From the NCBI GenBank assembly GCA_945861535.1, contig CAMAUZ010000071.1:1-40917 (forward strand): DNA of 40,917 bases, read 5' to 3'. The notes below the pieces were generated by a model. The model was not told the DNA's origin. It made no database searches and saw nothing but the letters and a program-made list of their open reading frames with translations. This stretch comes from Akkermansia muciniphila. GTDB taxonomy: Bacteria > Verrucomicrobiota > Verrucomicrobiia > Limisphaerales > BJHT01. Within the stretch, counting starts at the first letter, position 1; the number at the start of each line of letters is the position of its first letter. Of this stretch, positions 3,654 to 40,917 are shown in pieces. A program made the position numbers and the translations under genes.

Positions 3654-3667
3654 GGGCAGAACGTCGC

Positions 3668-3745
3668 AGCCGCCGAGGTGAGGACGCGGATTCGTCCTTG
3701 CGCCATCGCCCGTGCCAGCCGATCCGCCTCCTCACGTCGGCGGCT
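3668..3745. repeat. 78-bp inverted repeat, copy 2, inside the TerY-P operon
   Basis: The arms AGCCGCCGAGGTGAGG and CCTCACGTCGGCGGCT pair with one mismatch. It is related to the copy at 2112-2190 and fills most of the 122-bp gap between the PP2C gene and the kinase gene. It could form a hairpin in the operon transcript. Confidence 0.75.
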
Positions 3746-3775
3746 ACGCATCGGTTTCTCCAGCGCCTTCATCAC

Positions 3776-21211: not shown

Positions 21212-21281
21212 GGTTCAGTTTTAGCGGGGGTTTGCTGTTGTCACAAGCGGAACGTCGCACGGCGAGCCTAGTGGTTCGGCC

Positions 21282-23615: not shown

Positions 23616-23664
23616 TGGGAGCGGCGGTTGCAGGCGTACGTTTCTGCGGCGTGAACGCCGCGCC
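23563..23664. repeat. 102-bp palindrome-ended repeat (element A), copy 1
   Basis: It starts GCGCGGCCTTCAGGCCGC and ends GCGGCGTGAACGCCGCGC, with CGTACG inside. The direct copy at 23871-23962 has the same ends and similar interior. It overlaps the 5' end of the MBL gene. Confidence 0.8.
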
Positions 23665-23688
23665 CCGACCGCGAGCAGCGGGCGTGAC

Positions 23689-23842
23689 GCGACGGGGAGC
23701 GCACGCGGCTCGCGTGCAGATTTGGGCGGCCCGCCCAAATCCTCGTGCCCCGGTCTGACATTCGTGGCGAAGGGAAAGGTTTGTGGAACGAGGTTTTCGG
23801 CGGGCCGCCGAAAACGGCACGCCAGCGGCGTGCGCTCCCCGG
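23689..23842. repeat. 154-bp palindromic element, copy 2
   Basis: Same length, orientation and internal palindromes as 8783-8936, including TTTGGGCGGCCCGCCCAAA-like and TTTTCGGCGGGCCGCCGAAA stems. It lies between two copies of element A, making a repeat cluster in the gap 23616-23972; no gene is there. Confidence 0.85.
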
Positions 23843-23870
23843 GGCGTCGGGCTTCGCCCGATGCACAGGG

Positions 23871-23962
23871 GCGCGGCCTTCAGGCCGCTTCGGCGTGCGA
23901 GTGCAACGGGGTGTTCGGATGTTCTGTTTCGTTCGTACGCTGAAGCGGCGTGAACGCCGCGC
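23871..23962. repeat. 92-bp palindrome-ended repeat (element A), copy 2
   Basis: Begins GCGCGGCCTTCAGGCCGC and ends GCGGCGTGAACGCCGCGC. It stands about 10 bp beyond the stop codon of the cytochrome c/DUF1553 gene and could act as a 3' hairpin. Confidence 0.8.
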
Positions 23963-23972
23963 TCCTGCCGCG

Positions 23973-26900
23973 TTATCGCACATAGATGAACTCTTTGAGG
24001 TTGAAGAGCGATTGGGCGAAGTCCTGCCAGACGCGTTCGCTGGCGGCGAGTTGGTCGGCGGGGACGCTGGCGTCGCGGGCGAGGTCGGCGAGGTAGGCGC
24101 GGGATTTGGCGAGTTCGGCGGCGGACGGCGGGCGAGAGAACGCGGTGGCGAACATGGTTTTCACGCGCGCATCGGTGTCGGGGGCGGCGGTGGCATTCTG
24201 GCGGATGAGTTCGCGCGCCCAGGCGCGGGCGAGGTCGATGACGAACGGATCGTTCAGCAGCGCGAGGGACTGGCCGGGGACGTTGGTCGCGTCGCGGCGG
24301 CCGAGCGTGGTGAAGGGCTTGGGGGCGTCGAAGGTTTCGAGGAAGGGGTTCAAATTGTTGCGGCGCACGGCGAGATAAACGCTGCGGCGCGGGGCGTTGT
24401 TGCCGGCGAGCGGCGGGCCGAACGGCGTGGGGTCGAGCGAGCCGGCGACGACGAGCAGGGCGTCGCGGATGGCCTCGGCCTCGAGGCGGCGCACGGGGAA
24501 GCGCGCGAGCCAGTGGTTGGCGGCGTCAAGTTCGCGGGCGGCGGGCGGGGCTTCGCTGCTGAGCTGCCACGCGCGGGTGAGGACGATTTCGCGGATGAGT
24601 TTTTTGAACGACCAGCCCTCGGCGACAAAACGCGCGGCGAGAAAATCCAGCAGCTCGGGATGCGTCGGGCGCTCACCAAGGCGGCCGAAGTTGTCCACCG
24701 TGGCGACGAGGCCGCGGCTGAAGAGGTGCTGCCAGACGCGGTTGACGAGCACACGTGCGGTGAAGGGATTTCGCGGACTGGCGATGGCCTCAGCGAGTTC
24801 GAGGCGGCCGCTGCGGAGGGCGACGGAGTCTTTGGCGTCGGCGAAAGAGATGGGGCTGAGGGCTTCGAGATAACGGCGCGGGACGGCGTCGCCAGGCTTC
24901 AGATGATCGCCGCGAATCATCAGCGCGGCATCGTAGGGCGTGCCCTCAATGACACCGGGGACGCGGCGCGGATTGGGGATTTCGGATTCGAGCTGGCGAT
25001 ACTCGACGACGAGCGGCGCGACGGCAGGCAGGGCTTTGAGCGAGGCCGGCAGCAGGCTGCGGCGCACGAAGAAATCGAGGAAGGCTCGCTGGGGTTCGGT
25101 GAGACGGCCAGCGCGCCAGGAGTCCACGGAGTCGCGGAGGACGCGTTCGTAACGGGCGGCGAGTTCGGAGGGGGACGCGGGAGGCGCGCCGGCGAAGAGG
25201 AGTTCGGGCGCGAGCGGTTCGTCGCGCGGCGCTTCCTTGTCGTGGAAGACGACCTGCCCGGCGGCGAACCACGAGCGGCCCGCGGCATCGGGGCCGCGGC
25301 CGAGGCGGCGCGTGAGATCGTCCGCGGTGCCAAACTCGACATAGGCCCATGTGCCTTTGCGATAGGCGGTGTCGAGGCGTACCCAGCCGGGTTCGTCGGA
25401 TTTCAATTCGGCCTTCGGAAAGATCGGATTCGAGGGGAGCGGATAGTTGTCCACGATCACGCGCACGGCCGCGCCTTTGTTGCCCGCGGCGCGGACGTTG
25501 ATGCTGTCGGTGGTGATTTTGAAACGGGGCGAAGTGAAAAGGCCGTTGTGCTTTTGCGAGAGGAGATGGGTGGCGACGCCGGCGGGCAGGAGGCCGGTGA
25601 GGAGGCGGTCGCCCTCGGGTTCGAGGCTGAATTCGCCGGGCGCGTCGGACGCGACCGAACGCTCGCGATTCGCGCCGCGCGCGAGGCCGATGCCGTCGCG
25701 GAACCATTTTTTGGAATCGCTGCCGGTGAGATTCCAGCCGCCTTGGAATTGCGCGTTGTGTGCGCGCGCGGTGGCGACGGACTCGCGATGTTGCGTGGTG
25801 ATTTCAGTCCACACTTTGGCGAAGGCCGCGCCGTCGAGCTGGCTGAGGCGCGTCCAGGCGTGCAGCGGATTGGCGGGGTTGGTGCGGGCGTCGGTGAGCG
25901 CGGTGGCGAGCGGACTGGCGGCGCCGGGTTTGGAATCGGGGGAGCGCGCGGCGAGTTCGGCGGTGGCCTTGGTGAGTTGGGTCGCGAGTGCGGCGCGTTG
26001 GTTGCGCTGCTCGGGGGTGAGCGCGGCGGCGAGTTCTTTCGCGGTGAGGCCGACGGGGCCGGCTTGAAAGGAGGCGGCGATTTCCGCGGTGGTGAGCGCG
26101 CGGTCGTAGAGGCGGGCTTCGTCGAGTTCGCCGCTGAGAAAGGATTTGCCGCCGCCGGTGTGACGGCGGCCGAAGAGGAGGCGCGCGGTTTTCGGAAACG
26201 TCACGGGGCCGTCGGCGGGCGTGTAGGCGGGGCCGTAGGGCTGGCCGTTGCGGAAGAGCGCGATGCTGCCGTCGGCGCGGTAGGCGATGGCGATGTGGAT
26301 GAGTTCGCCGGGTTTGGCGGTCTCGGCGGGGCCGGCGACGGCCCGGCTGCGGCGATGGTTGTTGCTGCCCGCGAGCCAGCGGCCCGCGTCCATTTCGGCG
26401 AAGACGATGGAGTCGAAAATGACGCCGCTGTCGGTTTCGATGGTGATGACGCCGCCGCCGCGTTGGGTGAGGTCGGCGAGGGCGACCCAGGCTTCGAGGG
26501 TTTTTGCGCGCAGCTCGCGGCCGAGGGGAGCGGAGCGGAGGTGGGCGTCTTTGCCATCGAGAATGAGGCGGCCGTTGCGGAGCGTGGCGGTGCCGACGAG
26601 TTCGCCGTGGAGCGCGCCGATCTGGTCGCGTGTGTTGGTGTCGAAGGACCAGCGGGCGAAGGGTTGCGGCAGGAGCGCGGGCGGCTCGCCCGCGGGTTTC
26701 TTCGCGGGGTTCGTGGGTTCTTGCGGGCGGGCCGCGCGCGCGCTGAGCGCTTTCGCCCGCGCGGTGGCGTCGATTTCCGCGATTTGTTTTTCCAAGTCGG
26801 TGACGCGCTGGTGGAGCCGGGCGAGGTCGGGATCGGCGGCGGAGCCTTTGGTGAGGCGCGCGGTGAGTTCGGGCGCGGCGGCGGTCCAGGCGGTGGCAAG

Positions 26901-28217
26901 TTCGTCGCGGATGCGGGTTTTCAACGCGGTGAGTTCGGGGCGGTTGCGCGCGAGAAACTCGGGCGTGTCGATGGTGACTTGCGCGGGGCGGCTGCTGGCG
27001 AGGACGCCGTAGAGTGCGTAGTAATCGCGCTGGCTGATGGCATCGAACTTGTGATCGTGACAGCGGGCGCAGGCGAGCGTGAGGCCCTGGAAGGCTTTGC
27101 CGAGGACGTCGATCTGGTTTTCCACGGCCTTCACCTGGTCGTCGAGGGTATCGACGGGCTGGAAGCCGTGTTCGACGAGGCGCAGGTGGGCGAGGCCGAG
27201 GATGGATTCGTTGATGTTGTCGGCATCGTTGCGGCGCGGGTGCGCGAGGAGATCGCCGGCGAGGTGTTCGCGGATGAACTGGTCGGCGGGCACGTCGGCG
27301 TTGAAGGCGCGGATGAGATAATCGCGGTAGCGCCAGATGTCGCGAATCTCGGGGTCGCCTTCGCTGCCGTGGGATTCGGCGTAGCGCATGAGGTCCATCC
27401 AGTGGCGCGCCCAGTGTTCGCCGAAGGAGGGGGAGGAGAGGAGGCGGTCAGCGAGGGCGGAAAATTTCGAATGGCGATTGGCAAGCGACGAATTGGGGGC
27501 GGACGCGGCGGCGAAGGCTTCGACGTCGTCGGGTTTGGGCGGGAGGCCGGTGAGGGCGAAGGAGAGGCGGCGGGCGAGGGTCCGTGGGTCGGCGTCGGGA
27601 GCGGGAGTGAGGCCGTGTTTTTCCATTTCGGCGAGGAGGAAACGGTCGATGGCGTTGGTGCTCCAAGTCGTGTTTTTCGGGGTGGGGACGGTGGGTTGGA
27701 TGACGGGTTGGAAGCTCCACCATTGGCGGCGGAGGGCGAGAATGTCGGACCACGCGGCGGCGGTGGCGGGCGCGGCGACGGGCGGCAGTTCGCGGGGATC
27801 GGGCGCGCCGGCTGTTATCCACGCGGCGAAATCAGCGAGGATGCGGGCGTCGAGCTTCGCGCCGTTCTTCGGCATCTTCAGTTCGGGATCGGCGTGCGAA
27901 AGCGCGCGGAGGAGAAGGCTCTGGTCGGGATGGCCGGGAACGATGGCGGGGCCGGTGTCGCCGCCCTTGCGGAGGGCTTCGCGGTGATCAAGGCGCAGGC
28001 CGCCCTTTTGTTTCGCGCCCGCATGGCATTCGTAGCATTCGGCGACAAGGACGGGGCGGATGCGTTTCTCAAAAAACTCGAGCGACGAGGCGGCGTCCGC
28101 GGCGGCGACGACGGCGGATGAGACGGCACCGAGGAACAGGGCCAAGCACAGGCCGGGAGGACTGAAGCGGCGGTGGGTGGACGCAAAGCGGGCGGGGCGG
28201 GTGCGGGTGCGTTGCAT
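23973..28217 (-). CDS. exported cytochrome c-DUF1549-LamG-DUF1553 protein
   Basis: The 1414-residue product has a signal peptide to about residue 42 (LCLALFLGAVSSAVVAAADA). A planctomycete-type cytochrome c domain follows, with heme motif C61-Y-E-C64-H65 and the distal Met region LKMPKNGAK. DUF1549 spans about 185-400 (NAIDRFLLAEMEKHGL, RRLSFALTGLPP) and a short coiled coil about 465-500 (LHQRVTDLEKQIAEID). A LamG/concanavalin-like domain spans about 515-690 (FARWSFDTNTRDQIGALHG) and DUF1553 about 1130-1400 (LVNRVWQHLFSRGLVATVDN). These proteins are typical of Planctomycetota/Verrucomicrobiota and are thought to handle extracellular polysaccharide with a DUF1501 partner; the mechanism is unknown. 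ATG at 28217; the 59-codon upstream extension is repeat-rich and not signal-like. Confidence 0.92.
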   Translation of the reverse strand: MQRTRTRPARFASTHRRFSPPGLCLALFLGAVSSAVVAAADAASSLEFFEKRIRPVLVAECYECHAGAKQKGGLRLDHREALRKGGDTGPAIVPGHPDQSLLLRALSHADPELKMPKNGAKLDARILADFAAWITAGAPDPRELPPVAAPATAAAWSDILALRRQWWSFQPVIQPTVPTPKNTTWSTNAIDRFLLAEMEKHGLTPAPDADPRTLARRLSFALTGLPPKPDDVEAFAAASAPNSSLANRHSKFSALADRLLSSPSFGEHWARHWMDLMRYAESHGSEGDPEIRDIWRYRDYLIRAFNADVPADQFIREHLAGDLLAHPRRNDADNINESILGLAHLRLVEHGFQPVDTLDDQVKAVENQIDVLGKAFQGLTLACARCHDHKFDAISQRDYYALYGVLASSRPAQVTIDTPEFLARNRPELTALKTRIRDELATAWTAAAPELTARLTKGSAADPDLARLHQRVTDLEKQIAEIDATARAKALSARAARPQEPTNPAKKPAGEPPALLPQPFARWSFDTNTRDQIGALHGELVGTATLRNGRLILDGKDAHLRSAPLGRELRAKTLEAWVALADLTQRGGGVITIETDSGVIFDSIVFAEMDAGRWLAGSNNHRRSRAVAGPAETAKPGELIHIAIAYRADGSIALFRNGQPYGPAYTPADGPVTFPKTARLLFGRRHTGGGKSFLSGELDEARLYDRALTTAEIAASFQAGPVGLTAKELAAALTPEQRNQRAALATQLTKATAELAARSPDSKPGAASPLATALTDARTNPANPLHAWTRLSQLDGAAFAKVWTEITTQHRESVATARAHNAQFQGGWNLTGSDSKKWFRDGIGLARGANRERSVASDAPGEFSLEPEGDRLLTGLLPAGVATHLLSQKHNGLFTSPRFKITTDSINVRAAGNKGAAVRVIVDNYPLPSNPIFPKAELKSDEPGWVRLDTAYRKGTWAYVEFGTADDLTRRLGRGPDAAGRSWFAAGQVVFHDKEAPRDEPLAPELLFAGAPPASPSELAARYERVLRDSVDSWRAGRLTEPQRAFLDFFVRRSLLPASLKALPAVAPLVVEYRQLESEIPNPRRVPGVIEGTPYDAALMIRGDHLKPGDAVPRRYLEALSPISFADAKDSVALRSGRLELAEAIASPRNPFTARVLVNRVWQHLFSRGLVATVDNFGRLGERPTHPELLDFLAARFVAEGWSFKKLIREIVLTRAWQLSSEAPPAARELDAANHWLARFPVRRLEAEAIRDALLVVAGSLDPTPFGPPLAGNNAPRRSVYLAVRRNNLNPFLETFDAPKPFTTLGRRDATNVPGQSLALLNDPFVIDLARAWARELIRQNATAAPDTDARVKTMFATAFSRPPSAAELAKSRAYLADLARDASVPADQLAASERVWQDFAQSLFNLKEFIYVR

Positions 28218-28597
28218 AAGCTGGACCGGGTGCGGCGTGAAACTGCGGGCTGGTGCGCGGGAGTCAAGCGCGAGGGGCCGGGGCGAATCAACGACGGGCG
28301 GGCCACGCCCGGTGCTTTGGTTCGTGCGGCGAGACGCTGCGCGAACTCGCAGGCGGGGACGCCTGCGGTACCCGGGGGCGGACGGCTCCGCCATTCCGAA
28401 GCCGTCGCGGGTTTGGAGCTTTCCGCCTCGTCACCTCGGCGGCTACCGGGGGGCGGCGCGCAAGCCTGCGCCGCCGCAATAACCCGTTGACGCTCGTTCC
28501 GCGTTGCCAGCACTATCCGCCGCCTGCGAACGCCCGGGCGGTCTCGCACGGTCCGCGGATTTTCCCTGACGTTGGCACTGAACACGAAACTGTACCC
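28218..28597. other. divergent gap with repeats
   Basis: No gene is visible. It contains the 44-nt palindromic repeat (28328-28371) and a GCCTCGTCACCTCGGCGGCT arm (28420-28450) of another family. Promoters for the cytochrome c/DUF1553 gene (leftward) and apgM (rightward) should lie at the two ends. Confidence 0.5.
28328..28371. repeat. 44-nt palindromic repeat, intergenic copy
   Basis: It differs at two positions from 4938-4981 inside the PP2C gene. Hairpin GCAGGCGGGGACGCCTGC is intact. Confidence 0.85.
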
Positions 28598-29824
28598 ATG
28601 AAACTCGACGCTCTTTATTCCGAACTGACGCTCAAGACGAACGCCAAGCTCGCCCTCGTGGTGCTGGATGGCCTGGGCGACATCGCCACGCTCGGCCAGG
28701 GCGAGATGACGCCGCTCGAGGCCGCGCACACCCCGAATCTCGACGCACTCGTCGCGGGCGGCGCGGCGCAGGGGCGCATGATCCCGGTGGCGCCGGGCAT
28801 CACGCCGGGCAGCGGGCCGGGGCATCTGGCGCTGTTTGGTTATGATCCGCTGGAGTTTCAGGTCGGCCGCGGTGTGATCGAGGCGCTCGGACTTGGGCTG
28901 GAGTTGAAGGCGGGCGACGTGGCGGCGCGTGCGAATTTCTGCACGCTCGACGCCGCCGGGTTGGTCACAGATCGCCGCGCGGGGCGCATTGCGACGGAGG
29001 TTTGTGAGGAGCTGTGCGCGCTGCTGGCTAAGAAGATCAAGAAGGTCGGCGACGTCGAGGTCATCATCGAGGCGGGCAAGGAACATCGCTTCGTGGTGAT
29101 TTTCCGCGGCAAGGGTTTGGAAGGGCCGCTGACGTCGAGCGACCCGAATCGCGAGGGTCTCCCGATTGCGACGGCGAAGCCCGAGGATCCGAAGTCGGTC
29201 GGGCAAAAGAAGACGGCCAAGGCGGTCGCAGATTTTTACAAGGTGGCGCTGCCGCTGCTCGCGAAGCATCCGAAGGCGAACGGTTTCCTGCTGCGCGGCA
29301 TTGCGCATCAGCCGGAGATTCCGTCGTTCGAGGAGCGCTACAAACTCCGGCCCGCGTGCCTCGCCGTGTATCCGATGTACAAGGGCCTGGCGCAGCTCGT
29401 CGGCATGACGAAGATCGAGGGGCCGCAGACGATCGCCGAGCAGTTCCAGCGGTATCTGGCGGAATACGACAACTACGATTTCTTCTTCATCCATTTCAAA
29501 TACACGGACAAGGCCGGCGAGGACGGAAACTTCGAGGCCAAGAAACGCGCGATCGAGGACTTCGACGCCGCGCTGCCGATCCTGCTGGAGAAGCGGCCGG
29601 ACGTGCTCGCGATCACGGGCGATCACTCGACGCCGTGCTCGCTCATGGGGCATTCGTGGCATCCGCAGCCGGTGATGCTCACGTCGGCGTACTCGGGTTC
29701 GGACAAGCTGGATCGCTTCACGGAGACGGGCGCGAATCTCGGCTCGCTCGGCGTGTTCGAGGCGAAGTTTCTCCTGCGCTACATGCAGGCGAACGCGAAG
29801 ATGTTCGACAAGTTCGGCGCGTAA
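28598..29824 (+). CDS. apgM: cofactor-independent phosphoglycerate mutase, archaeal type (ApgM)
   Basis: The 408-residue alkaline-phosphatase-superfamily enzyme begins MKLDALYSELTLKTNAKLAL and has metal/Ser site VVLDGLGDI, HTPNLDALVAGG and GITPGSGPGHLALFGYDP. Later metal ligands are FIHFKYTDKAGEDG and ITGDHSTPCSLMGHSWHP. ApgM interconverts 3- and 2-phosphoglycerate in glycolysis without 2,3-BPG; this subtype occurs in archaea and several bacterial phyla. ATG at 28598 aligns with the family start. It is followed after 103 bp by a sugar nucleotidyltransferase on the same strand. Confidence 0.93.
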   Translation: MKLDALYSELTLKTNAKLALVVLDGLGDIATLGQGEMTPLEAAHTPNLDALVAGGAAQGRMIPVAPGITPGSGPGHLALFGYDPLEFQVGRGVIEALGLGLELKAGDVAARANFCTLDAAGLVTDRRAGRIATEVCEELCALLAKKIKKVGDVEVIIEAGKEHRFVVIFRGKGLEGPLTSSDPNREGLPIATAKPEDPKSVGQKKTAKAVADFYKVALPLLAKHPKANGFLLRGIAHQPEIPSFEERYKLRPACLAVYPMYKGLAQLVGMTKIEGPQTIAEQFQRYLAEYDNYDFFFIHFKYTDKAGEDGNFEAKKRAIEDFDAALPILLEKRPDVLAITGDHSTPCSLMGHSWHPQPVMLTSAYSGSDKLDRFTETGANLGSLGVFEAKFLLRYMQANAKMFDKFGA

Positions 29825-29927
29825 TTTTTCTCCACCCGGCCGTCCGTCGGCCCCGGCGTGCGGATGCCTTCGGGTGTTCGCCCGCGGGTGCCGGACGGTG
29901 CCTCGCAAACAGCCTCCCCTCCTCACG

Positions 29928-30680
29928 ATGAAAGCAGTCATTCTCGCCGCCGGCAAAGGTACGCGCATGCGCGACCTCACGAACGAACTTCCCAAGCCGA
30001 TGCTGCGCGTGCAGGGCAAACCCATTTTGCAGCACATCATCGAGGGCGTGATGACCACGGGCATCCGCGAATTTTGCATCATCACCGGTTGGAAGGCCGA
30101 GGTGGTGGAGGAGTATTTCGGCGATGGATCGAAGTTCGGCGCGCGGATCAGCTACGTGCGGCAGGCCGTGCAGGACGGCACCGGCAAGGCGCCCGAGCTG
30201 GCCAAAGCGTTCGTCGGGAACGACCCGTTCCTCCTCACCTACGGCGACATTTTGGTGAAGCCCGAGACCTATGTGCGGATGTGCGAGCGGTTCGCGGGCG
30301 GGGATTTCGCCGGGGTCATCACCGTGACCGGCAGCGAAGACGTGACCAAGGGCGGGTTGGTGTTTTTCGACGGCGACTTCTGCCTCAGCCATCTCGTCGA
30401 GAAGCCCAGTCCCGCGCAGATCGCGGAACTCATGCGCGACGGCTGGCTGAAGGTCGGCGACACCGCGTGGTACAATGCGGGCATCTATATTTTCCGTCCC
30501 GGCGTGTTCGAGTTCACCGCCCGCCTGCAAAAATCCCCGCGCGGCGAATACGAGCTGACCGATGCGCTCACCGCGATGATCACGGCCGGCCAGCGGATCG
30601 CGGGTTTGCAGATCGAAGGTCGCTGGGTCGATGTCCGCGATCCGGAGGTGCTGGCGAGTTTGGAGAACGAGAAGGCGTGA
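29928..30680 (+). CDS. NDP-sugar (nucleotidyl) transferase
   Basis: The 250-residue protein begins MKAVILAAGKGTRMRDLTNE, the signature GxGTRM...K loop of sugar-phosphate nucleotidyltransferases. LPKPMLRVQGKPIL, LLTYGDILV (metal-binding D) and HLVEKPSP follow, and the C-terminus contains GRWVDVRDPEVL. It makes an NDP-sugar from NTP and sugar 1-phosphate for envelope polysaccharide; base and sugar are not determinable. There is no left-handed beta-helix acetyltransferase domain, so it is the short RmlA/RfbF-like form. ATG at 29928. Could be co-transcribed with apgM. Confidence 0.88.
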   Translation: MKAVILAAGKGTRMRDLTNELPKPMLRVQGKPILQHIIEGVMTTGIREFCIITGWKAEVVEEYFGDGSKFGARISYVRQAVQDGTGKAPELAKAFVGNDPFLLTYGDILVKPETYVRMCERFAGGDFAGVITVTGSEDVTKGGLVFFDGDFCLSHLVEKPSPAQIAELMRDGWLKVGDTAWYNAGIYIFRPGVFEFTARLQKSPRGEYELTDALTAMITAGQRIAGLQIEGRWVDVRDPEVLASLENEKA

Positions 30681-30717
30681 GAAGGAACTGCGCCGGGGGC
30701 GGTCCGCGCTTCCGGCC

Positions 30718-30890
30718 CTTGTAGGAGTCGAGGCGACGAGACCCTAACCTCCCGCCTTGCAACACCGCGGGCCGCGTCTGGCAATCAAGTTCCGGTCCCA
30801 CGCGCCCCGCCCCGCCGAGGTCAGCCCCCGAAACTCAGTCCGCCGCTCGCGCAGAAAAGGTCAGAGTCTTGTTACCTCGATTCCTACAAG
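30718..30890. repeat. 173-bp MITE-like element with 32-bp inverted ends
   Basis: Left end 30718-30749 (starting CTTGTAGGAGTCGAGG) and right end 30859-30890 (ending CGATTCCTACAAG) are inverted, matching at about 26 of 32 positions, with several G-U-compatible mismatches. No ORF is inside. It fills the gap between the nucleotidyltransferase and ruvB, which converge. Confidence 0.75.
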
Positions 30891-30899
30891 CCAGCGACC

Positions 30900-31919
30900 T
30901 CACAGCAGCTTCGTCTGTGCGCCGCCGAGGGGTTTCAGGCCGAGGCGCTGATAGCTCAGTTCCGTGGCGATGCGGCCTTGGGACGTGCGGTTCAGGTAGC
31001 CTTCCATGATTAGATACGGCTCATAGACTTCCTCGATGGTGTCGGGTTCTTCGCCCACGGCGACGGCCAGGGAGTTCACGCCGACGGGGCCGCCGGCGAA
31101 TTTCACGATGATCGTTTCGAGGATGCGCTTGTCCATTTCATCCAGGCCGTGCTGGTCGATCTCGAGCATCGCGAGGGCGAGGTCGGCGATGGGGGCGGTG
31201 ATGCGGCCGTCGCCGCGGACCTGCGCGTAGTCGCGGACGCGGCGGAGGAGATTGTTCGAGATGCGCGGGGTGCCGCGGCTGCGGCGGGCGATTTCGTGCG
31301 CGCCCGCAGGTTCGATCTCGATGTTGAGCAGGTGGGCGGAGCGGGTGACGATTTTTTCGAGCTGCTCGGTTTGATAATAGTCGAGGCGCTCGCGGATGCC
31401 GAAGCGGGTGAGCAAGGGCGCGGTGAGCAGACCGCTGCGAGTGGTCGCGCCGATGAGCGTGAAGCGCGGCAAACTCAGGCGCACGCTCCGGGCGTTGGGT
31501 CCCTGGTCGATGATGATGTCGAGTTTGAAGTCCTCCATCGCGGGGTAGAGATACTCCTCGATGGTTTTCTGGAGGCGGTGGATTTCGTCGATGAAGAGCA
31601 CGTCGCCGGCCTCGAGGTTGGTGAGCAGGCCCGCGAGGTCGCCGGCTTTCTCGATGGTCGGGCCGCTGGTGGCCTTGAGACTGCCGCCCATGGCCTTGGC
31701 GATGATGTTGGCGATGGTGGTTTTGCCGAGGCCGGGCGGGCCGCTGAGGAGGATGTGGTCGAGGCATTCCTTGCGTTGCTGCGCGGCCTGGACGGCGATT
31801 TCGAGGCGTTCCTTGACCTTGGCCTGGCCGGTGAAGTCGGAAAAAAGCGACGGCCGCAGCGTCATTTCGAGCGCCACGTCCGGCTTGGTCAACACATCGG
31901 TCACGATCCGCTCAGGCAT
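30900..31919 (-). CDS. ruvB: Holliday junction branch-migration helicase RuvB
   Basis: The 339-residue AAA+ protein has Walker A GPPGLGKT (60-67), Walker B FIDEIHRL (109-116), sensor/Arg region [13 protein letters not shown] and a winged-helix end [20 protein letters not shown]. RuvB hexamers drive branch migration with RuvA. The ATG at 31919 ([10 protein letters not shown]) is the family start; an upstream ATG 12 codons earlier adds a nonconserved tail. RuvA and RuvC are not in the window. Confidence 0.97.
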
Positions 31920-32276
31920 GGGGGCGAGGATGTGGAGAAGGGGGGGGAGGGACAAGGGAAAAGGCTGGAGCGCGGGGGAAAGCTCAAAGGATAAAGCTCA
32001 AAGCGCAAGGGAAGGGCCAAACGGGGGCATCGCGACGTGGTGGGGCGGTGGGAAGTGTGGTGTTTCGTTCACCGAACCGTGTGTTGAATCTCGCGGTCGC
32101 GGCGAAAAGCCCGGCGCGACTTGAGTTCCTCAGGAACGCACCTTGGAATCATCCGTGGGTGATCAGTGCCAATGGCTGAGGCCGCGGGAAAGGACCCGCG
32201 GCGGGCCGGCAAGGACGATGGCGGTGATAGCAAACCCGGACCGGACTTTTTCGGCGCGGCGGGCGCGTCCGGTCCC
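31920..32276. other. intergenic region, no gene seen
   Basis: No coding frame fits. Near 31975-32020 there is an AAGCTCAAAG/AAAGCTCAAAG short iteration resembling 8739-8770. It also holds a CCGCGGGAAAGGACCCGCGG hairpin near 32182-32201 and a stem just after the acetyltransferase stop. It must carry the ruvB promoter. Confidence 0.5.
32238..32275 (-). terminator. possible hairpin terminator of the acetyltransferase gene
   Basis: GGACCGGAC (32238-32246) and GTCCGGTCC (32267-32275) form a perfect 9-bp stem starting one base after the stop codon. There is no T-run, so termination may be weak or the hairpin may stabilise the 3' end. Confidence 0.4.
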
Positions 32277-32810
32277 TCAGGCCGCGACGCTGATCTGCTG
32301 GTCGGCTTCCTGCACGACCTGCGCGGGGTTGCCCATCGCGGCGGCGCCGGCGGGGATGTCGGTGATGACCACGCTGGAGACCCCGATGATCGCACCGTCG
32401 CCGAGCGTGGTCCGGCCGATGATTTTGGAACCATCCCCGATGAAGACGTCATCGCCCACGGTCGGGCCTTGTTTGAAGCGCTGTCCCATGATGATCTGCA
32501 CGCCCGCGCCGAGATGACAACGCGCGCCGATGGTGACGTGCGGCGCGATGACGATCCCCCACGGGCTGGGCAGGTGCAGGCCGGGTCCGATCTCGGCGCG
32601 CTTGGAGATTTCGATCCCGAACCAATGGGACAGGAGCTTGGCGGCCGGATAGGTCGGTAGTCCGTGCTTGAAACACCATGCCTGGCAGCGGATCAGCCCC
32701 AAGGCGCGCATGCTCGGCGAGGCGAGGCACTGCCGGAGGGTCTTCCACCACCCGCGCTTTTGGAGGGTCGGAATGTTCTCTTCGAGGTCGGCTTGTAAGT
32801 TGGTAAACAT
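32277..32810 (-). CDS. serine acetyltransferase-like (hexapeptide-repeat) protein
   Basis: The 177-residue CysE-like protein has a helical N-terminal part. Left-handed beta-helix repeats follow: IEISKRAEIGPGLHLP, GIVIAPHVTIGARCHLGAGV and GDDVFIGDGSKIIG. The final GAIIGVSSVVITDIPAGAAA is the GASSVVxxDxP pattern of serine O-acetyltransferases. It probably transfers acetyl from acetyl-CoA to serine or, given envelope genes nearby, to a sugar. It is shorter than full CysE (about 270), close to the short serine-acetyltransferase group. ATG at 32810. Confidence 0.82.
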   Translation of the reverse strand: MFTNLQADLEENIPTLQKRGWWKTLRQCLASPSMRALGLIRCQAWCFKHGLPTYPAAKLLSHWFGIEISKRAEIGPGLHLPSPWGIVIAPHVTIGARCHLGAGVQIIMGQRFKQGPTVGDDVFIGDGSKIIGRTTLGDGAIIGVSSVVITDIPAGAAAMGNPAQVVQEADQQISVAA

Positions 32811-33092
32811 GGGCGGTCGTGGCCGCCGGAGTCGCGTCGCCATTCGCCGTCGCCTGCGTTCAGGCGGTCGGCGGGAACTGCCGTCCGTTTCCGGCCACTC
32901 TCCGTGTTATCGGCGAAATGGGCGGTGAGTTTAGCGCCGTGTGGAAATTTTCTTGGTGGCGAAGCCGACGCGGAGTTTGGCACTGGTGGGAAAATGCCGC
33001 CGCCAATGCGTCGGGCGCTCCCCCGGGTTGCTAGCGCGGTCCAGAGTGCGAACGGCGTGGCGGTGTTGCCGCCGCCGCCGGCCTTTCGCTCC

Positions 33093-34922
33093 TTACGCCG
33101 CCCCCGCCACCCCCGGCGTGGCATTCAAATGCAGCAGCTTGGCAAACGCTCCGTTGCGCGCGCTCAACTCCTCCCACGTCCCCTGCTCGACGATCTTCCC
33201 ATTGTCGAGCACCACAATGTGACTGGCGTTGCGAATGGTCGAAAGCCGGTGCGCGATGACCAGCACGGTGCGCCCATGTACGGCCTGTTCGAGCGCCACC
33301 TGCACATGTCGTTCGCTCACGGTGTCCAGCGCCGCGGTGGCTTCGTCGAGGATGAGAATCTGCGGGTTCCGCACCAGCGCGCGCGCGATGGCCAGCCGCT
33401 GGCGCTGACCGCCGGAGAGCATCGTGCCGCGTTCGCCGACCGGTGTGTTCAGCCCGGCCGGCAGGGTGTTCACGAGGTCCTCGAGATGCGCCTCTTTCAC
33501 CGCGCGGCGGATGGCTTCCTCGGTCGCCTCGGGATAGCCGTAGGCGATGTTGTTCGCCATCGTGTCGTGAAACAGAAACGCCTCCTGCTCGACCACCGCG
33601 ACGGCGCGATGCCACGACGCCGCGGTGAACCGCCAGTAATCCCCGCCATCCACCAGCACGCGCCCGCCGCCGGGTTGCCGGAAGCGCAGCAGCAGATTCG
33701 CCACCGTAGATTTCCCCGAGCCGGACGATCCGACCACCGCGACCGTGCCGCCCGCCGGAATGGTGAAACTCACATCGTCCAGTCCTGTGCGCCCGCTCGG
33801 ATACGTGAAGCTGACGTGCTCGAAACGAATGCCCTCCTTGAGTCCGCCGAACGTCTCCGACCCGAACGGCTGGTTCGGATGCACCGGCGCGCCGAGCCAT
33901 TTCAAGACCTCCGACACGCCGCGCGCCAGAAAGATGAGGTGCCCCTGCAACCCATAGAGCTGGTTCAACAACGGCAGCGTGCGCAGCAGGATGAATCCAA
34001 ACCCCAGCAGGTAGCTGCTCAACATCGCCCCCGGCCGCACGAAGAAATAATACGCACACCCCACGATCACCATCGCGCCGGCCACCGCGATGGTCTCCGT
34101 GATCGGCACCAACAGAAAACCTGTGCGCGACGCGCTCTCCTCCGCGCGCGCCTGCGCGTCGTTGAGCCGCGCGAAGTTGCCGATCTCATGCGCCTGCGCG
34201 TGCGTCGTGCGCACCACGCGGATGCCCGCGAACGATTGCAGCACGCACGACGACAACTGCTGATTCAACTGCGTGATCTCCTCGCCCGACCGCGACAACC
34301 GCCGATACATGAAGCCCACCACCCCGCCGATCAACGCCGCCAGCCCGAGCGTGATCAGCGTCAGCGGCCACGAAATGAAGAACAGCATCCCGAGGTAAAA
34401 CAGCCCCATGCTCGCGCGCTGCACGAAGAGCAGCAGATAATCCACCAGCGCAAACGTCCGGTGCGTCTCGGTGAAAAAGACGTTGGAGATTTCCCCCGCC
34501 GGACTTTGCTCGAAGAGATGCAGGTCCGCGTTGTGCAGGCGCTCGAACAAGGCGTTGCGCAGGTTGGTCGAGATGCGCCGCCGCAGCACGGTCGCCAGCA
34601 CCTGGCTGGCGTACCACGTCACGTTCTTCAGCAGCACCGCTACGAACACCAGCACCGCAAACGCGAGCACATAAAACGCCGAGTCATGCCCCGGCACCGC
34701 CTCCTTCAACCATCGAATCGGCCGCATCGGCACCGCCCCCTCGCCCCCGAGCAACAGCGACAATAACGGCACCAGCAGGCTCACCCCCACGCCCTCGAGC
34801 AACGCCGCCAGGATCGACGTGAGCATCACCGCCGCGATCAGATACCGCCCGCCGCGCAGATGCGGCCGCAATCGCCAGATCGTGGCGAACACATGGCTGA
34901 TCTCGTGGAAGCTGGAGGTCAT
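33093..34922 (-). CDS. ABC exporter, fused permease and ATPase
   Basis: The 609-residue protein has an N-terminal transmembrane domain of about six helices (LIAAVMLTSILAALLEGVGV, AFAVLVFVAVLLKNV, LFFISWPLTLITLGLAALIG and others, to about 330). The nucleotide-binding domain follows from about 370: Walker A GSSGSGKST, Q-loop VEQEAFLFHDTMA, signature LSGGQRQRLAIARAL, Walker B ILILDEATAALD and H-loop IAHRLST. This is the MsbA/lipid or polysaccharide exporter class acting in the inner membrane as a dimer. Substrate unknown; envelope lipid or peptide plausible. ATG at 34922, 100 bp downstream of hisS on the same strand, possibly co-transcribed. Confidence 0.93.
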   Translation of the reverse strand: MTSSFHEISHVFATIWRLRPHLRGGRYLIAAVMLTSILAALLEGVGVSLLVPLLSLLLGGEGAVPMRPIRWLKEAVPGHDSAFYVLAFAVLVFVAVLLKNVTWYASQVLATVLRRRISTNLRNALFERLHNADLHLFEQSPAGEISNVFFTETHRTFALVDYLLLFVQRASMGLFYLGMLFFISWPLTLITLGLAALIGGVVGFMYRRLSRSGEEITQLNQQLSSCVLQSFAGIRVVRTTHAQAHEIGNFARLNDAQARAEESASRTGFLLVPITETIAVAGAMVIVGCAYYFFVRPGAMLSSYLLGFGFILLRTLPLLNQLYGLQGHLIFLARGVSEVLKWLGAPVHPNQPFGSETFGGLKEGIRFEHVSFTYPSGRTGLDDVSFTIPAGGTVAVVGSSGSGKSTVANLLLRFRQPGGGRVLVDGGDYWRFTAASWHRAVAVVEQEAFLFHDTMANNIAYGYPEATEEAIRRAVKEAHLEDLVNTLPAGLNTPVGERGTMLSGGQRQRLAIARALVRNPQILILDEATAALDTVSERHVQVALEQAVHGRTVLVIAHRLSTIRNASHIVVLDNGKIVEQGTWEELSARNGAFAKLLHLNATPGVAGAA

Positions 34923-35022
34923 TGCGCCGGCCCGCCCCGTGTCCGCCGCCGCCGAAACCCGCACAAAGCAGCCGCACGGTGGGGACCATCGGTGCTGGCG
35001 TCGATGAGCGGGCGCACGGGGG

Positions 35023-36462
35023 TTATCCCACCCCAAGCTGCTCTCGGACGGTAGCGACCAGATCGGCGCGCCGGGCCGTGAGCTGCCCCGCGCGGGCCTG
35101 TTTCTTATACTCGGCCTGGTCCGTCACACCGGCCCGCGTCACTTTGCCAATGACGAGGTTCTTGATGGAAACCGTGCCCGCCTTGATTTCATCCTCACCG
35201 ATGATCACGGCGATCGGGATGCCCCGGGCATTGGCGAACGCAAGCTGGTCTTTCATCGAGCTGCCTTTCGCCCCGAGATAGACTTCCGTTCGGATACCTG
35301 ACCCGCGCAATTCCGCCGCCAGGCGCAGCAATTCAATGGCGGGCACCCCCTTCATCCCGATGATGAGCGCCTGGGTGATGGTGGTGGCGACCTTGAGTTT
35401 GCCCAGGTGCGTGAGCGCATCAATGAAGCGATCCAGGCCGATGGACACGCCACAGGCGGGCACGCTGGTCTTGCTGAACCGATCCACCAAGCCATCGTAA
35501 CGGCCGCCGCCGAGCACCGAACCGAACTGCCGGGCCTGGGGCAGGAAGGCCTCGAAGACCATCGCCGTGTAGTAGTCCAGACCGCGCATGAGCGAGCAGT
35601 CAAAGACGGCCTCCTGTTCCGTCACGCCCAGAGCATCCAGGAAATCCGCCAGTTCGGCGAATTCGGCCAGTCCCCGGTCGGCTCGCTCGGACGGCGTGAG
35701 CAGGGCTTTTAATTCTCTCGTGAACGCCCGGCGGTCCAGCCCCCGAATGGCGACATAGCGGGTGATCTCATCGATCTGCTGCGGCGTGAGTTTGACCCCG
35801 GGAATGGGATCGCCCGAGGCATCGATGCGCCCGGCACCGAGTTCTTTGCGCACTTCCTCGAGGCCGACCTTGGCGAGCTTGTCGATCACACGCATCACCC
35901 GCTTGGCCTGCTCCAGCTCGGGAATGCCGATCTGCGTGAGAAAGGCGTGCGTCGCGCCGAGGTTGTTGATCTGGATGACAAACTCGCCCGGCCCCATAGC
36001 GAACTCTTTCATCACATCAGCCATGGTGGCGACTACCTCCGCCTCTACCATGAGCGAGTCCGACCCTGCGGCATCAATATCGAACTGGGTAAACTGCCGG
36101 TAGCGTCCCACCTTCGGGTCGTCCCCGCGGAACACCGGGCCGATGTGATAGCGGCGGAAGGGCAGTTTTACCTGGTCGGGATACTGGGCGAGCAGCCGGG
36201 CAAAGGGAACGGTGAGATCGAACCGCAAGCCGGCGGTTTCCTCCTCCGGTGTCTGCAGGCGGAAGATCAGCTTGTTGGTCTCGTCGCCGCCGGTACCCAC
36301 CAGCGTGCGGAGGTGCTCCAGCACCGGGGTATCAATGGGCGCGAATCCGTAGCGCTCATAGATTCGCCGGATCCGCTCGACCGCTTCGTTGCGGGCGATC
36401 ATGGAGTCGGGCAGCAGGTCGCGAAAGCCCTTCAGGGTTTCAGGTGGGACGAGATCGCTCAT
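35023..36462 (-). CDS. hisS: histidyl-tRNA synthetase, divergent type
   Basis: The 479-residue class II synthetase has KGFRDLLPDS (motif 1 region), motif 2 RYHIGPVFRGDDPKVGRYRQ then FTQFDID (104-130), histidine-binding RGLDYYTAMVFEA (293-305) and motif 3 region VSIGLDRF (339-346), then an anticodon-binding domain. Typical bacterial HisRS motif 2 reads FRxERPQxGRxRQF; here the ERPQ part is GDDPK and FTQFDID follows, closer to the form known from alpha-proteobacteria and eukaryotes. A tRNA-His lacking G-1 ends 16 nt upstream on the same strand, so synthetase and cognate tRNA are probably co-transcribed. The ATG at 36462 has no clear Shine-Dalgarno, and tRNA 3' processing would leave a very short leader. 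Identity as HisRS is certain; the subtype is an inference. Confidence 0.95.
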   Translation of the reverse strand: MSDLVPPETLKGFRDLLPDSMIARNEAVERIRRIYERYGFAPIDTPVLEHLRTLVGTGGDETNKLIFRLQTPEEETAGLRFDLTVPFARLLAQYPDQVKLPFRRYHIGPVFRGDDPKVGRYRQFTQFDIDAAGSDSLMVEAEVVATMADVMKEFAMGPGEFVIQINNLGATHAFLTQIGIPELEQAKRVMRVIDKLAKVGLEEVRKELGAGRIDASGDPIPGVKLTPQQIDEITRYVAIRGLDRRAFTRELKALLTPSERADRGLAEFAELADFLDALGVTEQEAVFDCSLMRGLDYYTAMVFEAFLPQARQFGSVLGGGRYDGLVDRFSKTSVPACGVSIGLDRFIDALTHLGKLKVATTITQALIIGMKGVPAIELLRLAAELRGSGIRTEVYLGAKGSSMKDQLAFANARGIPIAVIIGEDEIKAGTVSIKNLVIGKVTRAGVTDQAEYKKQARAGQLTARRADLVATVREQLGVG

Positions 36463-36478
36463 GGTGCAAAAGGAAACT

Positions 36479-36555
36479 TGGTACCGAGAACGGGGGTCGA
36501 ACCCGTAACCTCCAGATTCACAATCTGGCGCTCTAACCAATTGAGCTATCTCGGC
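36479..36555 (-). tRNA. tRNA-His (anticodon GUG), encoded CCA, no G-1
   Basis: The minus strand folds into a 77-nt cloverleaf. The acceptor is GCCGAGA with UCUCGGU, giving a G1-U72 pair. The D arm is GCUC/GAGC, the anticodon stem CCAGA/UCUGG with loop containing GUG, and the T arm ACGGG/CCCGU with loop UUCGACC. A73 is followed by encoded CCA. The base 5' of G1 is U, so the usual G-1:C73 pair of tRNA-His is absent. Histidine identity comes from the GUG anticodon and the adjacent hisS. Confidence 0.95.
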
Positions 36556-37133: not shown

Positions 37134-40055
37134 ATGCCACCCGCCACCCCCGATTTCGCCGCCGCTCACTCCCAAGTCATCGCCCTCTGCGACCACTTCG
37201 ATGCCCGCTGCGCCGAGATCATGGCACCCGGCTATAAGGAGGACACCACGCGCAACGAGTTCATCACCCCGTTCTTCGAGGCCCTTGGCTGGGATGTGCG
37301 CAACACGGCGCACCGCTCCGTTTATGAAAAAGATGTCGTCACCGAAAAACGCGAGAACATCGACGGCACCGCGCGCAGCGCCGATTACGCCTTCCGCCGT
37401 CCCGGCACGCACCTGACCGCCTTTTTCGTCGAGGCGAAAAAGCCGAAGGTCGATATCCGCAACCACGACTCCTGCCACCAGGCGGTCCTCTACGGCTGGA
37501 ACGCCTCCACGCCCCTCGTGTTCCTCACCGACTTCGAGCAGTTGCTGGTCCTGGACGCTCGCTCGTGCCCCGACAAAACCGACGCCACCCGCCACATCCT
37601 GCCCGAGCACGGTTCCTACACCTACGCCGACTACCGCGACCCGGAGAAGTTTGCCGAACTCTGGGGTCTTCTTGCCCGCGCCCATGTGGCCACCGGTTCG
37701 CTCGATCAGGCCGCCGCCGCACTGCCCAAACTCTCCGGGCGCATCAAGAAAGGCGCGCTCTTTTCCCGGGGCACCCGGCCCGTCGATGAAGAGTTCCTCG
37801 CCCAAATGGAATTGTGGCGCGAGCAACTCGCCAAGTCCCTCAAACGCACCAACCACCACCTTGACGGCGACCGCCTCACGTCCCTCACGCAGCGCATCCT
37901 GGACCGCCTGGTCTTCCTCCGCTTTCTCGAGGATCGTGGCATCGAGCGCGATGTCACCTTTGCCGACCTCGGCCAAGCGGGCGGCACCTGGCAGGACTTC
38001 CTCAAAGTCTCCCGCCGCCTCGATGCCCGCTACAACGGCATTATTTTCAAAAGGGATGACGCCGGCTGCGAAGACAAAACCATCAGCATCGACGACACCG
38101 TGTTCGCCGCCGTCGTCGAGAGTCTCCGCCCCGGCAAGTCTGACTATCTCTTCGCGCAAATCTCCGTCACCATCCTCGGCAGCATCTACGAGCGCTTCCT
38201 CGGCAATGTCATCGTCGCCCGCGACAAGACCGCCATCGTCGAACCCAAGCCAGAAGTCCGCAAAGCCGGTGGCGTTTATTACACCCCCGACTACATCGTC
38301 CGCTACATCGTCGAGCAGACTGTCGGGCGTTGCATCGCCGGGAAAAAGCCCGGCGAGATTGAGAAACTCCGCTTCGCCGACATTGCCTGCGGCTCTGGCA
38401 GTTTCCTAGTCGAAGTCTTCGCCTCACTTATCCGTTACCATCTCGCATGGTATCTCGCCGACGGCCCGGAAAAGTGGGCGAAGAAAGGCCTTCTCCGCCA
38501 GCGCGACATCGACGGCGACTATGTCCTCACTCTGGCGGAAAAGCGTCGCATCCTATTGGCCTGTGTCTATGGCGTCGATCTCGACCCCTCCGCCGTCGAA
38601 GTGACTCAACTCTCCCTCTACCTCCGGCTGATGGAGGACGAAAGCTTCCCGTCCACGCAAGCCCTCTTCGATTTTGAGAAGCACGCCCTATTGCCGGATT
38701 TGCGGGACAACATCTTGTTCGGAAATTCCCTGATTGAGACCGACATCGCCGACATGTTTGGACTTTCTGCGGAGGCGCACGGGCAGATACTTCCCCTCAA
38801 TTTACGGTGGCAATTTCCCCAGGCATTTCCACGCGGAAAAGGTGGGTTTGACGCAATCGTCGGTAATCCACCTTACGGGGCATCGCTGTCTCGCGATTTA
38901 GAAACCTATGTGCGGCAACGCTACACGACGGTCGCAAACTCCCTCGATACGTTCCTGCTTTTCTGCGAACGAGCGATTAGTTTGCTGAAACCGAGTGGGC
39001 GCTTTGGATACCTGATACCATCTGGGTGGGCTTCCACCCCGTCCGCTGCCAAACTCCGCGTTCACTTCTCGGAAACGTGTGAGCCGACGTCGTTGGTCAT
39101 GCTGCCGTACGATGTGTTCGAGGGTGCGTATGTTGATACGATGATCGTCGCCGCCCGCAGGATGGCGGCGTCAGAATCATGGGAGACATTGCCAAAGACC
39201 TCCATAGACTTGATCGTCTTCCCTGTCCGCTATCACATTAATGAAGTCACCGAGTTTGAGACATTCGCCAAGCACGGTGACTTCCAACCATGGAAGCGAC
39301 TGGCTCATCGTGGATTTCTTGTGACTGCTTCAAAGGCGGAACAGACCTTGATTCTAAAGCTTCTCGACATGCCTTCGACCTTCGATGATGTCGTTGAGGT
39401 CATGCGTGGAATCGAGACCTTCAACCCAGCAGAGAAGCGCGGTATGAAGAACCCGGTCGTCGCGCTAACCGGTGACTTGCTTCGCTACGAGATTACTCAT
39501 GGTGAGATGCTCTATGTGGATTATCCGCCTGAGATAGAACGGCAGAAGCGCAAACAGTTCTTCTCCGGCCCGCGCATCCTGCTTCGGCAACTTCTAAGTC
39601 GTCGATTCCGGCTGCAAGCGTCGTTCGCGACAGACTTCTTTCTCACCAACCAATCCATCCAGAGCCTAGTCGCTCGGAGCGGGGCCGGTTCGGCTGCGCC
39701 AGATATTCGAGCAACGCTCGGGATATTAAATAGCCGGCTGTTGTCTTGGCTGTTTTGCCAGACAAACCTTGTTTCCCGTCGGGACGACTTTCCCAAGACG
39801 ATCATCAAGCAGACGAGGGAATTTCCGTTCCCTCCAGAACTCTCCGCTGCCGCCCGCCACGGCGAACTGGTAAAGCTTGTTGGCCAAATTTTGGCCGCGA
39901 AAAAGCTCGAAACCCAGGCGACGGATGGGGGGAAGCGGGAGCATGCCGCAAAACAATGCGCAGCACTTGACCGGCAGATCGACGCCGTGGTCTATGAACT
40001 CTACGGCCTGACCGACGCGGAAATTGCCCTCGTGGAAAGTGCCGCAGGTCACTGA
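37134..40055 (+). CDS. type IIG (Eco57I-like) restriction-modification enzyme
   Basis: The 973-residue single-chain enzyme has an N-terminal PD-(D/E)xK nuclease with D84 in SADYAFRRPG and E100-A-K102 in FFVEAKKP. A helical linker follows (about 200-300), then an N6-adenine methyltransferase with SAM motif I ADIACGSGSFLVE (about 415-427) and motif IV VGNPPYGA (NPPY at 578-581). A C-terminal target-recognition region ends in a conserved helical tail. It both cuts and methylates DNA at a site set by the recognition domain. The stretch of about 38690-39840 is visibly less GC-rich than both ends, suggesting exchange of the recognition part. ATG at 37134. It stands alone, as usual for type IIG. Confidence 0.9.
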   Translation: MPPATPDFAAAHSQVIALCDHFDARCAEIMAPGYKEDTTRNEFITPFFEALGWDVRNTAHRSVYEKDVVTEKRENIDGTARSADYAFRRPGTHLTAFFVEAKKPKVDIRNHDSCHQAVLYGWNASTPLVFLTDFEQLLVLDARSCPDKTDATRHILPEHGSYTYADYRDPEKFAELWGLLARAHVATGSLDQAAAALPKLSGRIKKGALFSRGTRPVDEEFLAQMELWREQLAKSLKRTNHHLDGDRLTSLTQRILDRLVFLRFLEDRGIERDVTFADLGQAGGTWQDFLKVSRRLDARYNGIIFKRDDAGCEDKTISIDDTVFAAVVESLRPGKSDYLFAQISVTILGSIYERFLGNVIVARDKTAIVEPKPEVRKAGGVYYTPDYIVRYIVEQTVGRCIAGKKPGEIEKLRFADIACGSGSFLVEVFASLIRYHLAWYLADGPEKWAKKGLLRQRDIDGDYVLTLAEKRRILLACVYGVDLDPSAVEVTQLSLYLRLMEDESFPSTQALFDFEKHALLPDLRDNILFGNSLIETDIADMFGLSAEAHGQILPLNLRWQFPQAFPRGKGGFDAIVGNPPYGASLSRDLETYVRQRYTTVANSLDTFLLFCERAISLLKPSGRFGYLIPSGWASTPSAAKLRVHFSETCEPTSLVMLPYDVFEGAYVDTMIVAARRMAASESWETLPKTSIDLIVFPVRYHINEVTEFETFAKHGDFQPWKRLAHRGFLVTASKAEQTLILKLLDMPSTFDDVVEVMRGIETFNPAEKRGMKNPVVALTGDLLRYEITHGEMLYVDYPPEIERQKRKQFFSGPRILLRQLLSRRFRLQASFATDFFLTNQSIQSLVARSGAGSAAPDIRATLGILNSRLLSWLFCQTNLVSRRDDFPKTIIKQTREFPFPPELSAAARHGELVKLVGQILAAKKLETQATDGGKREHAAKQCAALDRQIDAVVYELYGLTDAEIALVESAAGH

Positions 40056-40263
40056 CTCGAAGGCGTTGTGCAAATCGCCGAGGACTGTTTCCACTCACGG
40101 AAGCAGTCAGGTCCCGGGCCGGGAGGCGGAGATACAAGCACTCGGGCGCAACTCAGATTCTTGCACGCGGTCTGGTGACCGCGCCGCGGGTGTGGGGCAG
40201 GCATCCCTGCCCCGTCTTCCCAGTGCCGCTGTGGGTTGTCGGCCATGACAACGGGCGGCAGGG
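40056..40263. repeat. short gap with two GC-rich hairpins
   Basis: No gene is visible. It contains GGGGCAGGCATCCCTGCCCC (near 40196-40215) and GGGCGGCAGGGATGCCGCCC (near 40253-40272). The second overlaps the first codons of the following frame. Related to the hairpin at 6341-6363. Confidence 0.6.
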
Positions 40264-40917
40264 ATGCCGCCCGAACTGGCCCGGCCGCTCGGCCAGCCCT
40301 ACTACTGGACGGCCAGCCAGACCGAGTTCGCCACCGACCTGCTCTTCGCCGATCCCGCCCGCCTGGCGGCGCTGTATGCGCAGTTTGTGCAGCACGGCAT
40401 CAAAACCTTCGGCTGCCGCGACGTGCTGCGCTTTCTGGGCCACGGCGCGCCCGACCGCTTCACCGGCGAACTGGCCAGCACGCTCAAACAACGGCCCGAG
40501 GGCGTGTGCCTGCGCCACCGCGTCAACGGCAACTCGCCCAAGATGTATGACAAACAGGGGCGCGTGCTGCGGATCGAGACCACCATCGACCACCCCGAAC
40601 ACTTCAAGAGCTTCCGGCCCAAGGCCAGCGACCCGACCGCCCCGCTGGCGTGGCAGCGAGTGCGCAAGAGCGTGGCCGATGTCCATCGCCGGGCGGAGAT
40701 CAGCCGGGCGGCCAACGGCCGGTATCTCGAAGCGCTGGCCAGCACCCATGACCGGACGCCGCTGCACCAGGAAGCCGCCACGGTGTGCCGGCCGGTGACC
40801 GTCGCCGGACAACGCCACCGGGCGCTCAACCCGTGGAGCAAGGAGGACGGACGGCTGCTGGAGATTGTGAGCCGTGCCGAGTATGCGGTGGCGGGCTTTC
40901 GCAACCGCGACGTGCGC
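40264..40917 (+). pseudogene. unidentified protein, apparently 5'-truncated, running off the window end
   Basis: The frame is open for 218 codons from an ATG at 40264 to the last base; an in-frame TGA lies at 40246-40248. Strong coding character: LGQPYYWTASQTEFATDLLF, IKTFGCRDVLRFLGHGAP, RVLRIETTIDHPEHFKSFRP, VADVHRRAEISRAANGRYLE, ALNPWSKEDGRLLEIV and GFRNRDVR. I recall similar sequence in hypothetical proteins of Planctomycetota/Verrucomicrobiota but cannot name a function. The protein seems to begin mid-domain, and its only ATG lies inside the palindrome GGGCGGCAGGGATGCCGCCC, so the original 5' part was probably lost by a repeat-associated rearrangement. It may be intact if the short start is real. 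Confidence 0.6.

Follow-up and report, generated by a model that had tools for sequence, protein, structure and literature searches.

A linked A73-type tRNA-His/histidyl-tRNA synthetase pair, probably acquired horizontally, in place of the native pair within one verrucomicrobial genus

The identity rules of tRNAs are thought to be resistant to horizontal change; the enzyme and its tRNA must match. How, then, did a tRNA-His gene lacking G-1 come to lie in what looks like a verrucomicrobial chromosome? An earlier note, made from the sequence alone, had drawn attention to this gene and had named two possible sources, transfer of a tRNA–synthetase pair or independent origin. The window that we analyzed is the whole stretch of 40,917 nucleotides, contig C71 of the draft genome G000, which comprises 7.94 Mb in 169 contigs, with 96.6% completeness and 1.9% estimated contamination. 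The verrucomicrobial assignment of the window, based on a DUF1501 protein, is plausible.

The tRNA-His(GUG) gene occupies positions 36479..36555 on the minus strand. Direct reading of the sequence and ARAGORN placed G1 at 36555, A73 at 36482, the encoded CCA at 36481-36479 and U-1 at 36556, and the acceptor stem GCCGAGA/TCTCGGT sets G1 opposite U72; the U before G1, U72, A73 and encoded CCA described in the earlier note were all present. The gene scored 74.7 bits against RF00005, ranking second of 54 matches in the genome, a score high enough to rule out a chance match. It was also the sole tRNA-His found among these 54 matches. We read the anticodons of the remaining matches, including an array on contig C9, and observed no other GTG anticodon in a tRNA context, so that a second, canonical tRNA-His was sought across the 7.94-Mb genome and not found. 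A search of the genome for a Thg1-like G-1 addition enzyme (PF04446) also returned nothing. We infer that the mature tRNA-His lacks G-1. In the fold, U-1 could pair with A73 and lengthen the acceptor stem. The C9 array lies outside the window (C9:109194-112601; L002 1600-5200). Its roughly twenty tRNA-like genes are aberrant: the D arms are short, the T loops have the form GGTGCRA where GTTCRA would be usual, CCA is encoded, and the anticodons are of many kinds, none of them for histidine. The array is perhaps carried on a mobile element.

Just downstream of the tRNA-His gene on the same strand lies a hisS gene that the earlier note had not mentioned (35023..36462, minus strand; ATG at 36462, stop at 35023). 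It encodes P0001, a histidyl-tRNA synthetase (HisRS) of 479 amino acids with the motif-2 loop FRGDDPKVGRYRQF, and is separated from the tRNA 3′ end by a spacer of 16 nucleotides (36463..36478), which suggests that tRNA-His and hisS share one transcript. We found no sigma-70-like promoter or flanking repeats around the pair. PF13393 detected one HisRS in the genome, at 35428-36429 of the window. P0001 is a class II HisRS by both sequence and fold: it scored 361.5 bits against TIGR00442 (cut-off 286.75), and its AlphaFold2 model (pLDDT 92) matched HisRS structures, with Z scores of 36-40 and 36% identity for human HisRS and Z scores of 32-33 for Escherichia coli HisRS. P0001 has also kept residues that are invariant in HisRS, among them RGLDYY and the arginines of motif 2.

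The motif-2 loop sets this enzyme apart from the canonical type. We built a maximum-likelihood tree of 53 HisRS sequences, none of them eukaryotic, in which P0001 and the alphaproteobacterial enzymes fell into one A73-type clade with support of 100/99. The canonical motif-2 Gln (xPQ[KR]GR or QQKGR) was missing from P0001 and from the entire clade; the loop reads DPKVGR in P0001 and KPGPGR or KPAPGR in most clade members. One sequence labelled Sphaerobacter (L204) had a canonical-like Gln loop and fell outside the clade. In the alphaproteobacterial subgroup, the motif IIb loop carries a derived Gly123 in place of the ancestral Gln123 (PMC3937112). P0001 has Lys at the column that, by an inferred column mapping, aligns with this derived Gly, and its recognition may therefore differ in detail from that of the alphaproteobacterial type.

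Enzyme type and tRNA type went together. All 13 distinct tRNA-His sequences from genomes with an A73-type HisRS, the window included, lacked G-1 and had G1:U72 and A73; the count covers genomes in which a tRNA-His was found and leaves out L159, L162, L163 and L204, for which the search pattern gave none. The base at position -1 in these genes was U in 11, A in one and C in one, so that U-1 is not fully conserved. The tRNA-His gene lay directly upstream of hisS at six loci: G000, G297 (L260), L158 (Acidobacteria), L160 (Planctomycetota), L185 and the alphaproteobacterial L193. Some A73-type genomes of other phyla had the tRNA-His on a different contig from hisS. At L193, from an uncultured alphaproteobacterium, the tRNA-His (2190-2266) is directly upstream of hisS (2501-3916), indicating that the linkage survives in at least one alphaproteobacterial lineage.

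These features match a known identity system. In Caulobacter crescentus, the anticodon, U72 and A73 serve as the histidine identity elements (PMC9976931); the HisRS of Consotaella depends critically on G1:U72 and A73 and hardly at all on the anticodon (PMC7590224). The window pair resembles the Caulobacter or "RRCH" alphaproteobacterial system in its lack of G-1, its G1:U72 and A73 and its HisRS clade, and P0001 matches the insertion-domain stretch and C-terminal extension of those enzymes. It differs from them in that P0001 is not nested among the alphaproteobacterial sequences (36-41% identity, with Lys rather than the derived Gly), and in its adjacent tRNA and hisS genes, the replacement within a genus and the relic of the old gene described below. 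By tRNA features and HisRS clade, the sequences thus identify the window pair as a Caulobacter-type system outside the alphaproteobacterial subgroup. With the canonical systems of E. coli, Thermus and the congeneric genome G001 it shares the GUG anticodon, the class II HisRS fold and intact HisRS motifs, whereas their G-1:C73 and motif-2 Gln are both missing. The eukaryotic type, as in human, shares the A73 discriminator, and human HisRS was among the best structural matches of the P0001 model. Based on homology and on the co-occurrence of tRNA and enzyme type, P0001 would recognize its tRNA as the alphaproteobacterial type does, and the window tRNA would be charged by P0001 through A73 and U72.

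To place P0001 among its kin, we scanned 84,980 species genomes with a profile; the taxon labels of metagenome-assembled genomes (MAGs) are given as they stand in the records, unchecked. Among the matches listed, the closest were MAGs labelled Nitrospiraceae (L154, 53% identity) and Hydrogenedentota (L155, 52%), followed by an uncultured MAG (45%), Acidobacteria L157 and L158 (42% and 41%), Vicinamibacteria L159 (42%) and Planctomycetota L160 (40%); others, and many alphaproteobacterial enzymes at 35-40%, came after these. The pairs of L154, L155, L157, L158 and L160 shared the tRNA features and HisRS clade of the window pair at 40-53% identity. Only two of 388 genomes of the window's phylum carried an A73-type HisRS: G000 itself and G297 (L260; 53% identity), which belongs to another class. 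In the tree, P0001 grouped with G297, L154 and L155 at 100/99, and the alphaproteobacterial sequences formed their own 100/99 clade inside the A73-type group, without P0001. A scan with P0001 alone returned no relative, which means no more than that its 8-residue peptides are not shared by any close relative.

Of the two origins considered in the earlier note, these data favored transfer of the pair and spoke against independent origin: the adjacent HisRS belongs to the A73-type clade, and since P0001 sits inside one clade with the alphaproteobacterial enzymes, the A73 type did not arise independently in the window genome. Convergence was considered and is unlikely. An alphaproteobacterial donor was unsupported, with the alphaproteobacterial enzymes at 36-41% identity and the nearest kin among the matches listed, L154, L155 and G297, at 52-53%. 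Plasmid records gave alphaproteobacterial HisRS as the best matches to P0001, at about 36-40%. No close donor has been sampled, the best match listed being at 53%.

The canonical tRNA-His state was found in all relatives checked. The comparison of tRNA-His genes recommended in the earlier note revealed G-1, C72 and C73 in all 29 order-level genomes checked, G001 included (25 distinct sequences), unlike the window gene. When we compared P0001 with 58 related genomes, again including G001, we obtained only distant HisRS, with 26-33% identity in the best segments. G001, the only other genome of the same genus compared, has a canonical G-1/C73 tRNA-His (L126) and a canonical hisS beside a gyrA-like gene (L079 4636-5907, minus strand). 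Because G001 and the order-level relatives are canonical, the tRNA-His state of the window is derived, and the change lies within the genus.

Traces of the native pair could be followed in G000. The gyrA-like/hisS neighborhood of G001 is 91% conserved on contig C79 of G000, where 99 bp of the 1,272-bp hisS are left at the native site (L122 5339-5437, corresponding to C79:30838-30936). The relic aligns to about the first 40 nucleotides of the gene, with the ATG changed to CTG, to a 26-nucleotide interior piece (24/26 matches) and to the end with the TAA stop codon. The tRNA-His gene of G001 lies near a tRNA-Thr gene in an 8-kb neighborhood that is 89% identical on contig C5 of G000, and there the segment holding the tRNA-His is unrelated sequence. 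The hisS relic and the replaced tRNA-His segment together indicate that the native pair is gone, rather than merely unassembled.

The surroundings of the window pair are those of the host. Window positions 21273-34962 matched G001 at 86-94% DNA identity: a flank that includes ruvB (21273..32921) matched several G001 contigs at 86-93%, and the ABC transporter gene downstream of hisS (33093..34962, minus strand) matched at 94%, with homology fading upstream of the gene start. hisS had no counterpart at that G001 locus. Beyond the tRNA, a dispersed repeat at 40144..40280 recurs on G000 contig C79, so that host DNA lies on both sides of the pair, and by this sequence evidence the contig carrying it is genuine. 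Between the tRNA and this repeat lies a divergent Eco57I-like restriction-modification gene (37134..40055, plus strand), with a GC content of 58.7% against 65.4% for the window and partial similarity of 69-79% to contig C393 of G001; it may mark an acquired island beside the tRNA–hisS pair. The flank also contains an imperfect palindrome (23686-23848) with 64-nucleotide arms, 84% complementary, and a 35-nucleotide spacer, which belongs to a family with dozens of copies in G001. Although their genes are 86-94% identical, G000 and G001 have a heavily shuffled order of genes relative to each other, and adjoining window segments hit different G001 contigs.

Taken together, it is highly probable that the window holds a horizontally acquired, linked tRNA-His/HisRS pair and that the native pair was replaced. 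The swap appears to have been recent and to have taken place as a unit. The linkage of the genes and the similarity of the acceptor stem to that of G297 suggest that tRNA and enzyme were transferred in one event.

One rival account holds that a foreign hisS alone was acquired, and that the native tRNA-His adapted to it by losing G-1 and gaining U72 and A73, and was moved or converted beside hisS. Such a course would agree with Ardell and Andersson (2006), who reportedly proposed enzyme transfer followed by tRNA adaptation for the alphaproteobacteria. The tRNA body is about equally close to host-genus and foreign tRNAs (54/74 aligned matches to G001 and 59/76 to G297), and the acceptor stem is the only part that separates the two candidate donors: it has 10/14 bases in common with G297 but only 5/14 with G001. 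This difference, the recurrence of tRNA/hisS adjacency at the G297, Acidobacteria and Planctomycetota loci, and the old tRNA-His neighborhood now without its gene make the transfer of hisS alone unlikely.

Two further accounts were weighed. The pair might be a contaminant joined to the host contig by binning or assembly, as could happen in a draft genome with the estimated level of contamination given above. However, host DNA flanks the pair on both sides of a single contig; moreover, with only a relic left of the native gene, the cell would have no HisRS at all but for this pair, although hisS is essential. An artefact of this kind is very improbable. Alternatively, G-1 might be added after transcription and the tRNA charged in the canonical way; eukaryotes use Thg1 for G-1 addition (PMC9976931). 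We give this almost no credence, because the window genome, unlike eukaryotes, has no Thg1 match, P0001 falls outside the canonical HisRS type, and A73 with U72 would not give a G-1:C73 pair.

Under the preferred reading of horizontal acquisition and replacement, a linked foreign tRNA-His/hisS pair would have entered the genome, bringing a HisRS that reads G1:U72 and A73 (for some clade members also the anticodon), not G-1:C73. The joint arrival of tRNA and enzyme would have made the foreign system self-sufficient and largely orthogonal to the native pair, so that both could coexist. Indeed, the Caulobacter and E. coli tRNA-His/HisRS pairs are orthogonal (PMC3875453). A non-cross-reacting pair would work at once and render the native pair dispensable; the native hisS did decay, as the visible 99-bp relic shows, and the native tRNA-His gene was lost.

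Loss of G-1 in bacteria has been assigned a probable single origin in alphaproteobacteria, and the transfer of a eukaryotic-derived HisRS has been described for the alphaproteobacterial system (PMC3937112), although that eukaryotic source is disputed (PMC5370408). A broader proposal, which we regard as evenly balanced between right and wrong, is that a linked orthogonal histidine cassette circulates between phyla and displaces native pairs, and that the alphaproteobacteria would owe their version to one successful import from such a pool outside their own group, not to a eukaryote-derived enzyme to which the native tRNA adapted. The identity system is known; its spread over several phyla and the swap within a genus appear to be unreported in the literature searched, most subscription papers being outside the search. 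Within the same literature, and with the same restriction, neither Acidobacteria (searched as tRNA-His/HisRS) nor Planctomycetes (searched as tRNA-His/G-1) were reported to have the trait.

The locus captures an identity switch within one genus, with the states before and after, a decaying native gene and the enzyme beside its tRNA. Because within-genus states, a relic and linked genes are all available, co-transfer and in-place adaptation become testable against each other. The phylogenetic spread of A73-type pairs bears on the source of the alphaproteobacterial system, and these pairs are candidates for orthogonal tRNA–synthetase tools.
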